Origin: Mycobacterium sp. MYCO198283
GTDB taxonomy: Bacteria; Actinomycetota; Actinomycetes; Mycobacteriales; Mycobacteriaceae
DNA length: 64,000 nt
NCBI RefSeq assembly: GCF_021213805.1
Contig: NZ_JAJQJI010000001.1
Location: 503,944-567,943 of the forward strand
Direction: 5' to 3'
In this document: positions 20,409-25,164 of the stretch, piece by piece
Position numbering within the stretch: position 1 is the first letter of the stretch
How the letters are laid out: the number at the start of each line of letters is the position of its first letter
Notes under the pieces: model-generated
The model's database searches: none
Told to the model about the DNA's origin: nothing
Seen by the model: the letters and a program-made list of their open reading frames with translations, nothing else
Program-made: the position numbers and the translations under genes

Positions 20409-20789
20409 GTGGTGCAACGAGCCTTCATCAGCTTCGACTACGACAACGACGCACGGTTGAAGGACCTGCTGGTCGGCCAGTCGAAGAACCCCGACTCTCC
20501 GTTCGAGGTACACGACTGGTCTATCAAAACAGCCTCCCCAGGTTGGCGTGAAGAAGCCCGGCGCCGAATTCGTGCGAGCGGGTTGGTGATCGTCCTGTGC
20601 GGCAAGTACACGCACCTTGCTACTGGCGTTGGCGTTGAGCTCGGCATCGCCCAGGCGGAGAGCGTGGACTACTTCCTCCTCGCGGGTTACCAGAACGGTT
20701 CAACTCGGCCGACGACAGCGAAGGCGACGGACAAGATGTACAGCTGGACCTGGGAGAACCTCAAGAAGCTTGTGAACGGCCAGCGATGA
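20409..20789 (+). CDS. TIR-like protein (MTH538/ThsB type)
   Basis: This protein of about 126 residues is essentially one domain. It starts VQRAFISFDYDNDARLKDLL, with SPFEVHDWSIKTASPGWREEARRRIRASGLVIVLCG in the middle, then KYTHLATGVGVELGIAQAE. These match the TIR-like MTH538 fold used by ThsB in Thoeris and by related signalling proteins. A GGGAGG site precedes tandem GTG codons at 20409 and 20412, either of which may be the start. The stop overlaps the next gene by ATGA. A role in phage sensing or signal production is inference from family and context. Confidence 0.78.
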   Translation: MVQRAFISFDYDNDARLKDLLVGQSKNPDSPFEVHDWSIKTASPGWREEARRRIRASGLVIVLCGKYTHLATGVGVELGIAQAESVDYFLLAGYQNGSTRPTTAKATDKMYSWTWENLKKLVNGQR

Positions 20790-21262
20790 GTGAACTAGCT
20801 GAAGCACTCCCCGACGCGCGGGTCCTGGACATCTACAAGCTGGCTGTGGAGATGGCGGACCGTGTCTCGGCCCGGCGCGCGTTGGCCAATGCCTTCTTTC
20901 TCACCGTCAACACCACCCTGGTCGCTGTGGTCGGGTTATCGACCACACAGCCAGACTCCGCGCTGCGTTTCATAGCCGTGTGCGCGGCAGGTGTCGCTGT
21001 GTCCGTGTGCTGGTGGCTCCTTCTCCGCGCGTACCGCCGGCTCAATTCGGCCAAATTCGCAGTTATTAACCAGATCGAGAATGACCACCTTCCCGTCAAG
21101 CCGTACACGGACGAGTGGAAGGAGCTAATGCCCGACGACGTGGCCACCGGCCGCCGTGCGCGGCTGAAGGCCTTGCGCGAACTCGGCGGTGTCGAACGCA
21201 TTGTGCCAATCGTCTTCGGGTTGCTGTACGTCGCACTCTTGGTCGGCAGACTAGTGACATGA
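20786..21262 (+). CDS. Three-helix membrane protein in the TIR-like operon
   Basis: This 158-residue protein has three hydrophobic segments (residues about 33-52, 60-80 and 138-156). A basic/acidic cytoplasmic stretch separates the second and third. The N-terminus (VLDIYKLAVEMADRVSARRALANAFFLTVNTTL) recalls small SLATT-like membrane proteins that occur beside nucleotide-signalling and TIR genes. It overlaps the TIR gene and the downstream gene by 4 bases each, which implies coupled translation. A pore-forming effector role is a hypothesis. Confidence 0.75.
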   Translation: MSELAEALPDARVLDIYKLAVEMADRVSARRALANAFFLTVNTTLVAVVGLSTTQPDSALRFIAVCAAGVAVSVCWWLLLRAYRRLNSAKFAVINQIENDHLPVKPYTDEWKELMPDDVATGRRARLKALRELGGVERIVPIVFGLLYVALLVGRLVT

Positions 21263-21555
21263 GTTACCTCGATGTCGACGCTGAGCTGATCCGGAGCTGC
21301 CTACCCACGGGCACTGGTGTACCCGAGGACTCGGACGACCTGTTCGTCCTCTACGCAGTCCTCATGCGCGCCAAAGGCGAGGGCACGCGAGCCGCCGACG
21401 TGCACGACGCCTGGTCGGCGTGGATGTCGCGAAACGAACCAGACCACGAGTCAATCCGCCCGTACGACCAGCTCGCGCCGTCGGTGCAACAAGAAGATGC
21501 GCCTTTCCTCACCGCAATACATAGCGCAGCTCGCGTTCGCGCCGAGCGCGGCTGA
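21259..21555 (+). CDS. Small conserved actinobacterial protein (DUF7701-like)
   Basis: This 98-residue protein starts MSYLDVDAELIRSCLPTGTG and contains DLFVLYAVLMRAKGEGTRAADVHDAWSAWM, then RPYDQLAPSVQQEDAPF. The pattern matches a small actinobacterial family that I recall as DUF7701, with no known biochemical role. Its ATG overlaps the stop of the membrane-protein gene, making it the third member of the operon. Confidence 0.7.
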   Translation: MSYLDVDAELIRSCLPTGTGVPEDSDDLFVLYAVLMRAKGEGTRAADVHDAWSAWMSRNEPDHESIRPYDQLAPSVQQEDAPFLTAIHSAARVRAERG

Positions 21556-21658: not shown

Positions 21659-22057
21659 ATGAACTTGGTGAGGTCGAAGGAGCGCATGGCCGATCACGGT
21701 GAGGTGTTCACGCCCCTGTGGGTCGTCGACGCGATGTTGCAGTTGGTGAAGGGCGAGTCCGAGCGTATCGACGCGTTTTCTAGAACCTGCATGTACCTCA
21801 CGGATTTTCGGGAGAACACTCTTAAAGACGTCATAACGAAATTGGAGCCGGACCTTTTTAAGACGGTCACCGGCCTCAGCGTCGCTGACTTCAACCTGTT
21901 GGTGTCGCTCAATGTCTTCAACAGCACGCACATGAACCAGGCCGTGCTCGCGTTTCGCCGGTACGAGGATGCGTCGCTGTCTTACACCGGTATCGATAGC
22001 CACGAAGGGCTCAGTCATTTGGGGCTCTACGACACGGTAGTCGCCCGAGAGGGCTAG
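21659..22057 (+). pseudogene. Internally deleted N6-adenine DNA methylase gene
   Basis: The 132-residue frame joins two methylase ends. The start (VRSKERMADHGEVFTPLWVVDAMLQLV, residues about 4-30) is the lead-in to the SAM-binding motif of type I/IIG-like N-6 methylases. The end (LFKTVTGLSVADFNLLVSLN through FRRYEDASLSYTGIDSHEG) resembles the C-terminus of the same family. The SAM motif, the NPPY motif and several hundred residues between are gone, with the frame kept. The junction is near base 21780. A TAGGCT -10 box at 21647-21652 precedes the ATG by 6 bases, so it may still be expressed leaderless. Confidence 0.65.
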
Positions 22058-22145
22058 AGACGATTATGACGAGTTGCTAACCACCGTATCCGCAGCATCT
22101 CTCTGAGGCTTCGTCCCAGAAGGGCCTTTTGTCGGTCGGTAGCGC

Positions 22146-22151
22146 TACACT
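22146..22151 (+). promoter_or_regulatory. Leaderless -10 box for the CAP12-type TIR gene
   Basis: TACACT lies 7 bases before the GTG at 22159, the spacing expected when transcription starts at or next to the start codon. No Shine-Dalgarno sequence is present, which agrees with a leaderless message. Confidence 0.55.
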
Positions 22152-22158
22152 GGCCTCC

Positions 22159-23034
22159 GTGTCGGAGGGCATTAGAAGAAGGAACGCGAGGAAGGTCTTC
22201 GTTGTCCACGGCCGCAACCTGGGCGCACGAGACGCGATGTTCAGCTTCCTTCGGTCTATCGGCCTGGAGCCAATCGAATGGTCCACGGCAATCAGTGCGA
22301 CCGGCTCAGCGAGCCCCTATATAGGTCAGGCGCTGGACGCTGCATTCGAGATGGCACAGGCGGTGGTGGTGCTCCTGACGCCCGATGACATCGCGTATCT
22401 ACGCTCTGAATACGCTAACGCTGACGACGATCAAGAAAGGATCCCGACGCCGCAAGCAAGGCCGAACGTGCTCTTCGAGGCTGGCATGGCTATCGGCCGT
22501 CATCCTGAGAGAACGGTCCTCGTGGAGTTAGGTTCCCTGCGTCCGTTCAGCGACGTCGCGGGTCGACTAGCAGTGCGTCTCGACAACTCTGCGCCGAAGC
22601 GAAATGATTTGGCGAGCCGGCTCAAGGACGCGGGCTGCGACGTGACGACCTCTGGGTCTGACTGGCTCACCGTAGGTGACTTCACACCACCGAATGAACC
22701 GGACGCACCGCTTGGCCGTCGGGTTCCGAGTTCTTCGAGACGTCCTCGAAATCGTCTCGATGCGCAGTACCTACGCCGCACGGCAGGCTCTGATCGAATT
22801 CAGCTCATCAATCGCAGTGGGGAAGACCTTTTCGATCTGAAGTCGCCAAACGCCAAGGACTTTCTCGGGAGAATAGACGGCTTCCCTGTGACGCGGTTGC
22901 CCGCGTCAAAGTCCATAAGTTTGCAAGCACTTCAAGGGTCGGGAACTCCGAATACATTCGATCTGGTCGTCACAGGGCATACCGAGGACGGCGAGCAGTT
23001 CGCTGAGACACTCTTCTTAGACCTCAACGGGTAG
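22159..23034 (+). CDS. TIR-domain protein of the CAP12/Pycsar-associated type with extra C-terminal domain
   Basis: This 291-residue protein starts with a predicted nucleotide-binding TIR-like domain (residues about 10-140). Its motifs are KVFVVHGRNLGARDAMFSFL, ALDAAFEMAQAVVVLLTPDD and RPNVLFEAGMAIGRHPERTV. Relatives in CBASS and Pycsar loci degrade NAD+ when a second messenger binds. After a basic linker there is a beta-rich segment of about 90 residues (RIQLINRSGEDLFDL to FAETLFLDLNG) that I do not recognise. No cyclase gene is visible. The zinc-ribbon gene 6 bases downstream is probably co-transcribed. Confidence 0.75.
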   Translation: MSEGIRRRNARKVFVVHGRNLGARDAMFSFLRSIGLEPIEWSTAISATGSASPYIGQALDAAFEMAQAVVVLLTPDDIAYLRSEYANADDDQERIPTPQARPNVLFEAGMAIGRHPERTVLVELGSLRPFSDVAGRLAVRLDNSAPKRNDLASRLKDAGCDVTTSGSDWLTVGDFTPPNEPDAPLGRRVPSSSRRPRNRLDAQYLRRTAGSDRIQLINRSGEDLFDLKSPNAKDFLGRIDGFPVTRLPASKSISLQALQGSGTPNTFDLVVTGHTEDGEQFAETLFLDLNG

Positions 23035-23959: not shown

Positions 23960-24445
23960 TGTGTCGTCGACATCCTCAAAACGCGGATCGGCGGACGGGA
24001 TCCTGACGAGCCCGCCGTCACCTCACCTAATGGCGCGATGCTGCGCTCCAACAACTGGCGTCGACACACCCACTGGAACAAAGCCCTCAAGAAGACCAAT
24101 CTGGCGCCGTTGACCATCCACGATCTGCGCCATACCTACGCCAGCTTGGCCCGCAAATCTGGCGCCAATCTTCGCTACGTGCAGAAGACCATGGGCCACT
24201 CAACGCCAACCGTTACCGCGAACATCTACTGCGACCTCTACTCCGACGAGCTGGACCAGGTCGCAACCGAACCTCGATCAGCTTCACGCGAACGAGATTC
24301 ACACACCAATGACCGGACAAGAACCGGACGAATCAAACTGAAAACCGAGTGCAAGACCCGTGTCGATGCAGATCAGTCCTGGTGGCCAGGGCCGGGATCG
24401 AACCGGCGACCTTCCGCTTTTCAGGCGGACGCTCGTACCAACTGA
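23960..24445 (+). pseudogene. C-terminal remnant of a tyrosine integrase
   Basis: An open frame without a credible start begins right after a TAG at 23957. It encodes the catalytic end of a tyrosine recombinase: LTIHDLRHTYASLARKSG (HxLRH box), YVQKTMGHSTPTVTANIY (GH box) and the nucleophile Tyr in IYCDLYSDEL. The first catalytic Arg and the arm-binding domain are lost. Similarity ends near 24270; the rest of the frame runs into tRNA-Phe antisense. Its position beside the right island edge shows it was the island's own integrase. Confidence 0.8.
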
Positions 24446-24456
24446 GCTACCTGGCC
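24383..24456 (-). tRNA. tRNA-Phe (GAA)
   Basis: The 74-base cloverleaf reads from 24456 down. The acceptor GGCCAGG pairs with CCTGGCC, the discriminator is A, the anticodon loop CTGAAAA gives GAA, and the T-loop is TTCGATC. The CCA end is not encoded. The genomic island abuts its 3' end, and its last 26 bases recur at 19481-19506. Confidence 0.95.
24384..24409 (+). repeat. Island attR inside tRNA-Phe
   Basis: This is the right-hand copy of the 26-bp repeat at 19481-19506 (24/26 identical). It forms the acceptor and T-arm of the intact tRNA-Phe, as expected when the element supplies a replacement tRNA end on insertion. Confidence 0.75.
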
Positions 24457-24493
24457 CGGAAGGCACCGGAATCCGTGCCTCGCCGCACTAAAG

Positions 24494-24567
24494 CGACCCT
24501 GACGGGACTCGAACCCGCGACCTCCGCCGTGACAGGGCGGCGCGCTAACCAACTGCGCCACAGGGCC
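24494..24567 (-). tRNA. tRNA-Asp (GTC)
   Basis: The 74-base cloverleaf reads from 24567 down. The acceptor GGCCCTG pairs with CAGGGTC (one G-T pair), the discriminator is G, the anticodon loop CTGTCAC gives GTC, and the T-loop is TTCGAGT. It lies between tRNA-Phe and tRNA-Glu in one leftward cluster. Confidence 0.95.
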
Positions 24568-24599
24568 TTGCGCTTGCTTCCGGCGTGTGCCGGTTGCAG

Positions 24600-24672
24600 T
24601 ACCCCCTACGGGATTCGAACCCGCGCTACCGCCTTGAAAGGGCGGCGTCCTAGGCCGCTAGACGAAGGGGGC
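24600..24672 (-). tRNA. tRNA-Glu (TTC)
   Basis: The 73-base cloverleaf reads from 24672 down. The acceptor GCCCCCT pairs with AGGGGGT, the anticodon loop CTTTCAA gives TTC, and the T-loop is TTCGAAT. It is the first gene of the Glu-Asp-Phe cluster. The 123 bases to tRNA-Lys hold only promoter sequence. Confidence 0.95.
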
Positions 24673-24780
24673 CCAGCCGAATCTCTCCGGGGTACTCGCA
24701 ACGTCTTCACGCTGGGAGCCACGTCAGCTTAGGGCACGGCGGGCACAAGACTCAAACGAGGTCGCGCGCAGGACAACCAG

Positions 24781-24786
24781 TATCCT
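24781..24786 (+). promoter_or_regulatory. -10 box of tRNA-Lys
   Basis: TATCCT lies 9 bases before the mature 5' end of tRNA-Lys, which places transcription start a few bases upstream of the tRNA. No clear -35 element is seen. Confidence 0.5.
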
Positions 24787-24795
24787 CGACGCCAC

Positions 24796-24868
24796 GCCCC
24801 TATAGCTCAGTTGGTAGAGCTACGGACTTTTAATCCGCAGGTCCCAGGTTCGAGCCCTGGTGGGGGCA
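24796..24868 (+). tRNA. tRNA-Lys (TTT), prophage attachment site
   Basis: The 73-base cloverleaf has acceptor GCCCCTA pairing with TGGGGGC, anticodon loop CTTTTAA (TTT), T-loop TTCGAGC and discriminator A. CCA is not encoded. Phage genes begin directly after its 3' end, and the repressor frame on the other strand runs into it, so its 3' half should be the left prophage-chromosome joint. Confidence 0.95.
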
Positions 24869-25164
24869 CCGCCGGCTCCGCCGTCATCGTCGCCGCCGTC
24901 CCCGCCGTCGGGCAGCAACTCCACCGGCGGGATGAGGCTTTCGGGCGTCACGCCCAGCCAGGCCGCCGTCACAGCAATGTCGATGGCCGACCACTCGGTC
25001 TTGCCGCGCAGGCGGTCTGACACCGACGCCTGGCCCATCTGCAGTACCGCGGCGAGCTGCTTCTGCGTGCGGCCAGACCTCCACATCAGCGTGTGGACGC
25101 GCTCCCCGATTGCACTGGTGGCGCGCTTCTTCGGATCATCACGATCATCTACGGCGACGGTCAT
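24820..25164 (-). CDS. Prophage immunity repressor (XRE-type helix-turn-helix), reading into attL
   Basis: This 114-residue protein has an XRE helix-turn-helix (RVHTLMWRSGRTQKQLAAVLQMGQASVSDRLRGKTEWSAIDI, residues about 22-65). After an acidic Gly/Asp stretch, the last 15 residues (APTRARTWDLRIKSP) are encoded by the antisense of tRNA-Lys, with the stop inside the tRNA. Before integration the gene would therefore have had a different 3' end. It is divergent from the excisionase-like gene. The ATG at 25164 lies 7 bases after a TAAGCT -10 box, so it is probably leaderless. Confidence 0.8.
   Translation of the reverse strand: MTVAVDDRDDPKKRATSAIGERVHTLMWRSGRTQKQLAAVLQMGQASVSDRLRGKTEWSAIDIAVTAAWLGVTPESLIPPVELLPDGGDGGDDDGGAGGAPTRARTWDLRIKSP
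24824..24868. other. Probable prophage attL (common core in the 3' half of tRNA-Lys)
   Basis: The switch from chromosome to phage falls in this tRNA: host tRNA genes lie to the left, and the repressor and phage genes lie to the right. Mycobacteriophage cores usually cover the anticodon-to-3' half of a tRNA. The exact core cannot be set because attR is outside the window. Confidence 0.6.

Follow-up and report, generated by a model that had tools for sequence, protein, structure and literature searches.

The question raised by this locus was what a compact operon of three genes, found in a 64,000-nucleotide stretch of the Mycobacterium sp. MYCO198283 genome (hereafter the window), does for its host, and what its third gene contributes. 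The genes lie consecutively on the plus strand, are linked by two ATGA overlaps and encode, in this order, a ThsB-type TIR protein, an 8xMP family membrane protein and a DUF7701 protein (Table 1). An earlier reading made from the letters alone (the sequence-only reading) had proposed a tRNA-linked trio of a ThsB-type TIR protein, a three-helix membrane protein and a DUF7701-like protein, lacking a SIR2/ThsA or SAVED partner, and had suspected TIR signalling coupled to a membrane effector. The gene coordinates, the overlaps and the tRNA linkage were all found as described, and an integrase fragment lies downstream. The families were recovered above the Pfam gathering cut-offs, at 25.6 bits for ThsB_TIR (cut-off 21.2), 135.1 bits for 8xMP (30) and 127.3 bits for DUF7701 (27). 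No SIR2/ThsA or SAVED gene was detected in the trio by Pfam, and in none of the ten window open reading frames (ORFs) scanned did Pfam name a ThsA-type effector of the SIR2-SLOG, macro or caspase-like kind. The earlier interpretation was supported in part, and the logic of a TIR protein paired with a membrane effector was judged right. We consider it roughly an even chance, and the likeliest reading, that the conserved operon encodes a TIR signalling system against phages, in which cyclic ADP-ribose (cADPR) derived from nicotinamide adenine dinucleotide (NAD), a receptor of the ryanodine receptor (RyR) type and 8xMP as the effector act together.

Judged by profile comparison, DUF7701, the product of the third gene, is a divergent RyR domain, which is a new assignment. 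When the DUF7701 profile was searched against the PDB, the top five of the 11 matches at E <= 10 were RyR domains. Alignment with bacterial RyR domains (PF02026) by hhalign gave scores of 36.0-38.5 (P 1.4e-6 to 8.1e-6), covering mainly the second half. The controls stayed far lower: 60 column shuffles gave at most 15.9, reversed profiles 11.1 and 11.7, and three unrelated families 12.0-13.6. The window protein itself gave no match to Pfam RyR at E <= 1 and did not reach the gathering score, and 9 of 57 aligned DUF7701 relatives matched that family weakly (best E 0.018). TrkA_N was carried by 47 of the 50 bacterial PF02026 proteins that were fetched, a proportion biased by the use of a TrkA-RyR query, and one protein carried ion-channel domains. 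Hence, RyR domains joined to channels have precedent.

When DUF7701 was aligned by HMMER with RyR structures from Bacteroides and with animal RyR, its residues H49, W52, H63 and D80 fell on the counterparts of ligand residues. In RyDEP, a RyR protein of mycobacteriophages, H75, W78, H100 and D117 make the contacts with the cADPR ligand (PMC13232231). The counterparts in the Bacteroides RyR domain, counted by hand, are spaced by 3, 22 and 17 residues, as they are in RyDEP, and the middle spacing in DUF7701 is 11. Among 170 unique host DUF7701 sequences, H49, W52 and D80 were present in every sequence and H63 in 169, so that all four occurred together in 169. Short or broken stretches (e.g., L024 and L035) had been dropped from the DUF7701 alignment before counting. 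H63 does not face a histidine in the TrkA-type RyR domains that were compared by hhalign. The alignment, in which RyDEP itself was not included, suggests that the four residues may share the ligand role of those in RyDEP. The sequence-only reading had described the third gene product as a conserved small protein acting as a regulator or adaptor; the conservation was borne out, and what had been missed was the RyR-type domain bearing the residues by which a phage relative touches cADPR, which makes the proposed role a definite hypothesis.

The same domain was found in phages. By tblastn, DUF7701 was detected in 44 of 50,697 phage records, all of them Streptomyces phages and each below 60% identity, and 8xMP in none of the 50,697. 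Five of the 44 phage genes were fetched; they were 86-155 codons long, had mostly hypothetical neighbours and kept the His, Trp, His and Asp residues in all five cases. Of eight phage RyR homologues assayed, six bind 2'/3'cADPR, and RyDEP was tested against Bacillus Thoeris systems (PMC13232231). By analogy, the phage DUF7701 proteins parallel RyDEP sponges, which supports ligand binding by DUF7701.

Co-occurrence of the three genes elsewhere, a matter that the sequence-only reading had raised, was established. DUF7701 was above the cut-off in 8 of 198 genomes of the genus, the one holding the window included, and a ninth match fell below it. 8xMP was above the cut-off in 11 of the 198, and all eight DUF7701 genomes were among these (hypergeometric chance 3e-12 for 8 within 11 of 198). 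TIR, 8xMP and DUF7701 adjoined in 8/8 of the DUF7701 loci, the window locus among them. The ThsB-type TIR was commoner than the trio and occurred in 38 of the 198 genomes. Further, a scan of GTDB genomes with the 8xMP alignment yielded 73 loci, which were divided with trimmed profiles into 29 with the trio, 23 with 8xMP and DUF7701, 8 with TIR and 8xMP, and 13 with 8xMP only. The DUF7701 counts are those of the trimmed profile; an earlier profile caught out-of-frame ORFs overlapping 8xMP, and its counts were discarded. Among the trio loci are those of Mycobacterium, Gordonia, Schaalia, Streptomyces and Actinoplanes. Both 8xMP and DUF7701 are present in 52 loci, and in 44 of these the same 4 bases are shared by the end of 8xMP and the beginning of the DUF7701 match; the order TIR-DUF7701-8xMP was seen in one locus (L008). 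A phylum-wide sample of 296 genomes held DUF7701 in four (including that of the window) and 8xMP above the cut-off in seven. Two of the three other DUF7701 loci of this sample stood with TIR and 8xMP (L084, L085), and the third starts at a contig end (L086). DUF7701 counted 2330 proteins at E <= 0.001.

The 8xMP protein belongs to the "octameric membrane protein family" of Pfam. Its hydropathy peaks were located at about residues 33-51, 62-80 and 139-157, and the AlphaFold2 monomer model (predicted local distance difference test, pLDDT, 86) showed a pair of long helices and another helix at the C-terminus. No PDB relative was found by profile search, and the model had no convincing fold match in the PDB or viral sets, an absence that does not prove a new fold. 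The third rank of the viral fold list was held by a SLATT-labelled protein at a non-significant E of 1.2. SLATT_1 matched 11 of 61 aligned 8xMP members weakly (best 4.5e-4), and the window protein was not among the matches at E <= 1. Distances over 25 trio loci were correlated most closely between 8xMP and DUF7701 (r 0.74), followed by TIR and DUF7701 (0.47) and TIR and 8xMP (0.40). In 2000 permutations none of these three values was attained; common ancestry has a part in each of them.

The TIR protein was examined for invariant residues and for relatives of known structure. Residue E77 was invariant in 46/46 full-length relatives, and S38 was the sole other invariant position; in the unfiltered set of 49 sequences the glutamate was kept in 92%. 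The alignment of 46 was obtained by dropping five of 48 stretches as incomplete or doubtful (L035, L038, the first of L049, the second of L057, and L067) and adding three plasmid TIRs. ThsB_TIR was matched at E <= 0.001 by 45 of the 46. In the PDB, the profile found 8fz9 (named TIR, 4e-10), 8wcf (named molecular chaperone Tir, 1.5e-8), 9b7d (putative cyclic ADP-D-ribose synthase ThsB1, 4.5e-5) and MTH538 (0.003); PADLOC gave a weak ThsB match for the window protein (E 0.004). The chemistry of the TIR product is not readable from sequence.

A second family, recognised by its YLRPF and GT.WE motifs, which often follow hydrophobic stretches, was found up- or downstream, anywhere in the sequence fetched, in 18 of 36 loci without a ThsB-type TIR. 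Of these loci, 23 bear DUF7701, and the family was present in 14 of the 23 (e.g., L022, L025, L028, L048, L066, L068, L070 and L073, from Streptomyces and relatives). No Pfam name was obtained for the six members scanned. In a profile-profile alignment its WE motif stood opposite the glutamate of the TIR with a score of 30.7 (P 4e-4); by this modest score the family may be TIR-like. The arrangement looks like a swappable TIR input joined to a fixed output pair of 8xMP and DUF7701.

It was proposed that the system would work as follows. Phage infection would trigger the TIR protein, which, as an active NAD-consuming cyclase, would make a signal of the cADPR type. DUF7701 would bind this signal as a receptor rather than as an enzyme that destroys it, and would then act on 8xMP by contact, switching the membrane protein on. 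The activated 8xMP would damage or depolarise the membrane and so halt the infected cell.

Three other explanations were weighed. We find it rather doubtful that the trio, under a different name, has been published before as a subtype of Thoeris, for instance in a systematic survey of TIR-based systems (Yirmiya 2025). In favour of this, PMC13232231 cites that survey as well as a type VI Thoeris, and the survey, a preprint, is cited in PMC13142454 and PMC13174449 too. A search of the open-access PMC literature returned no text naming DUF7701, PF24792 or a trio of TIR, 8xMP and RyR, which does not prove the trio unpublished, and PADLOC 2023 had no model matching 8xMP or DUF7701 at E <= 1.

It appeared unlikely, a little more so than a prior description, that DUF7701 is a brake, which would bind or hydrolyse the TIR signal in the manner of RyDEP so that leakage spares 8xMP, the membrane protein itself being the sensor. 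Three observations speak for such a brake and weigh against a receptor. The catalytic pair of RyDEP, H75 and D117, corresponds to H49 and D80 of DUF7701, the two of them invariant in the host sequences; pairs of TIR and 8xMP without DUF7701 exist; and phages carry DUF7701 alone, as would be expected of a signal silencer. The ligand residues, taken from the alignment, fit both roles. However, DUF7701 tracks 8xMP more closely than it tracks the TIR protein, and it shares the recurrent 4-base overlap with 8xMP. Moreover, when 11 DUF7701-less loci were inspected by eye, the DUF7701 frame was found to be lost behind an open 8xMP in three (L037, L038 and L063; in L038 the TIR was shortened as well), and an internal stop interrupts DUF7701 in plasmid locus L103; sequencing errors are possible in these cases. 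Were DUF7701 an essential brake, its loss behind an open 8xMP should carry a cost. A receptor was considered the appreciably more probable of the two roles.

Least probable, and quite improbable in our view, is a stress, toxin-antitoxin-like or selfish-island module of TIR and 8xMP, with or without DUF7701, that makes a real NAD signal and has no role in phage defence: no defence assay was found and a location close to tRNA genes and the remnant of an integrase gene is typical of mobile cargo of any kind, but Streptomyces phages carry the third gene, relatives adjoin a type I restriction subunit gene and a TIR and caspase pair, and the window has, close by, another TIR-family gene, which is of the CAP12/Pycsar type.

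Table 1. Features of the trio and its surroundings (window positions).
Feature	Position	Strand	Remarks
ThsB-type TIR protein, 126 residues	20409..20789	+	GTG start at 20409; Pfam PF08937; E77 as the invariant Glu; putative producer of a signal by NAD consumption
8xMP family membrane protein, 158 residues	20786..21262	+	Pfam PF24838; three hydrophobic segments; putative membrane effector
DUF7701 protein, 98 residues, RyR-type domain	21259..21555	+	Pfam PF24792; putative cADPR-binding subunit
Short ORF after the trio	21659-22057		End closely like the sequence behind the shortened 8xMP of L014; no Pfam match
Second TIR-family protein, CAP12-PCTIR_TIR	22129-23034		PF10137, 97 bits; PADLOC candidate PDC-S35
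Protein after the second TIR-family gene	23041-23487		Matches PADLOC candidate PDC-M14A
Tyrosine integrase C-terminal fragment at the tRNA-Phe gene	24038..24445	+	Pfam PF00589, 39.1 bits
tRNA cluster	24380-24870		Starts 2.8 kb downstream of the trio; tRNA-Phe is 24380-24456

The genes behind the trio were also considered. The start of the short ORF presumably resembles the N-terminus of a DNA methylase, and the ORF may be a decayed remnant. The CAP12-PCTIR_TIR gene and the gene that follows it may form a second defence unit in the island. In Mycobacterium sp. SM1 (L014), the same order of tRNA-Phe, -Asp, -Glu and -Lys stands downstream of TIR and 8xMP, where 8xMP is cut short and DUF7701 is lost; this suggests a shared integration hotspot. 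The placement of tRNA-Lys is known together with the trio in four trio genomes. In two of them, G035 and G016, the tRNA-Lys match lies about 11 kb from the trio, and the site is not universal, because in G026 the two are far apart. The operon is probably mobile.

PADLOC and Pfam scans of the trio's neighbours took in 24 of the 29 trio loci and 116 proteins, those longer than 700 residues being left out. Restriction-modification, PD-T4-6, RT, nSTAND and transposase matches were found beside many ordinary families; these were obtained without a background control and were not counted as defence-island evidence. A tandem TIR pair preceded 8xMP and DUF7701 in four loci (L042, L057, L061 and L062). 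Large STAND/SARP-like regulator ORFs, read from sequence, stood upstream of 8xMP and DUF7701 in Streptomyces (L050, L055 and L056), and regulators of this kind preceded 8xMP in several Kitasatospora/Streptomyces loci.

Seven plasmid contexts of 8xMP were inspected. TIR adjoined 8xMP in four (Paenarthrobacter, Polaromonas, Novosphingobium and Halorussus) and was not adjoining in three (Rhizobium, Leptolyngbya and Acaryochloris); an annotated NB-ARC gene was present upstream of 8xMP in the Rhizobium context (L104). The trimmed profile found no DUF7701 in the Polaromonas, Novosphingobium and Halorussus contexts. TIR and 8xMP were therefore taken to be a wider pair, since they occur together on plasmids without DUF7701. 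The Paenarthrobacter plasmid L103 was rejected as a further such pair, as its DUF7701 is present with the internal stop. On this conjugative plasmid (505-4465), a TIR and caspase pair lies about 1.7 kb upstream of the TIR-8xMP genes and the broken DUF7701. The effector of type IV Thoeris is caspase-like, and we take this pair to resemble that type. A fusion of TIR with 8xMP in a single frame was seen in Streptomyces (L035) and was also set aside. DUF7701 on the same contig is out of frame and an intact DUF7701 is present under the same strain name (P0198), so that assembly errors are likelier.

If ligand binding is true, the trio would offer a three-gene bacterial system for studying the action of cADPR on RyR domains. 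DUF7701 gains a testable identity, a RyR-type domain is placed on the host side of TIR immunity, and the trio becomes a candidate natural target of phage anti-defence proteins with RyR domains, such as RyDEP of mycobacteriophages. We put forward tentatively, and at somewhat less than an even chance, a larger picture. The trio would complete a bacterial immune circuit leading from TIR through cADPR and a RyR domain to a membrane effector, and would be a prokaryotic counterpart, and possibly a source, of cADPR signalling via RyR domains. On this view, Streptomyces phages would have acquired the receptor for use as a decoy, and systems such as this may be what the mycobacteriophage protein RyDEP evolved against.

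In animals, cADPR is implicated in modulating ryanodine receptors (PMC13232231). RyR repeat domains work there with a membrane channel, much as DUF7701 would with 8xMP, whereas the animal receptor is a giant single-chain channel without a TIR, and 8xMP has no convincing match among solved structures. RyDEP shares with DUF7701 the RyR-type domain, the His/Trp/His/Asp ligand residues as aligned, and occurrence in phages. In bacteria, however, DUF7701 sits on the host side, in a TIR operon, and by alignment appears to have 11 residues fewer between the Trp and the second His. Independent predictions cast SLATT as a pore former that responds to nucleotides (PMC7159879) and, beside TIRs, as an effector regulated by ADP-ribose derivatives (PMC9503650). 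TIR-SLATT pairs resemble the trio in that a TIR adjoins a small membrane protein with, in some 8xMP members, weak SLATT_1 similarity, whereas 8xMP stands in Pfam as a family of its own, here with three hydrophobic segments, and the excerpts of these two papers mention no RyR-type third gene. The three-gene TIR and transmembrane system of the P2-like phage AC1, reported to be active against lambda and LF82_P8 (PMC9122126), likewise combines a TIR with associated membrane proteins; compared by description only, it differs in that no RyR-type gene is mentioned in the passages concerned. In Thoeris, the ThsB TIR makes a cADPR or His-ADPR, and ThsA is the effector. SIR2-SLOG and macro-domain effectors of types I and II are described in PMC12948488. 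The trio is like Thoeris in that a ThsB-type TIR, which would make the signal, shares an operon with an effector gene, and unlike it in carrying 8xMP and a separate RyR-type protein instead of a SIR2-SLOG, macro or caspase-like effector. The trio was set apart from Thoeris because it contains no ThsA-type effector and its signal is a predicted one. Its combination of a TIR with a membrane effector is already known in kind, and what is new is the assignment of DUF7701 to the RyR domains; the system would be a Thoeris-like variant of TIR signalling.
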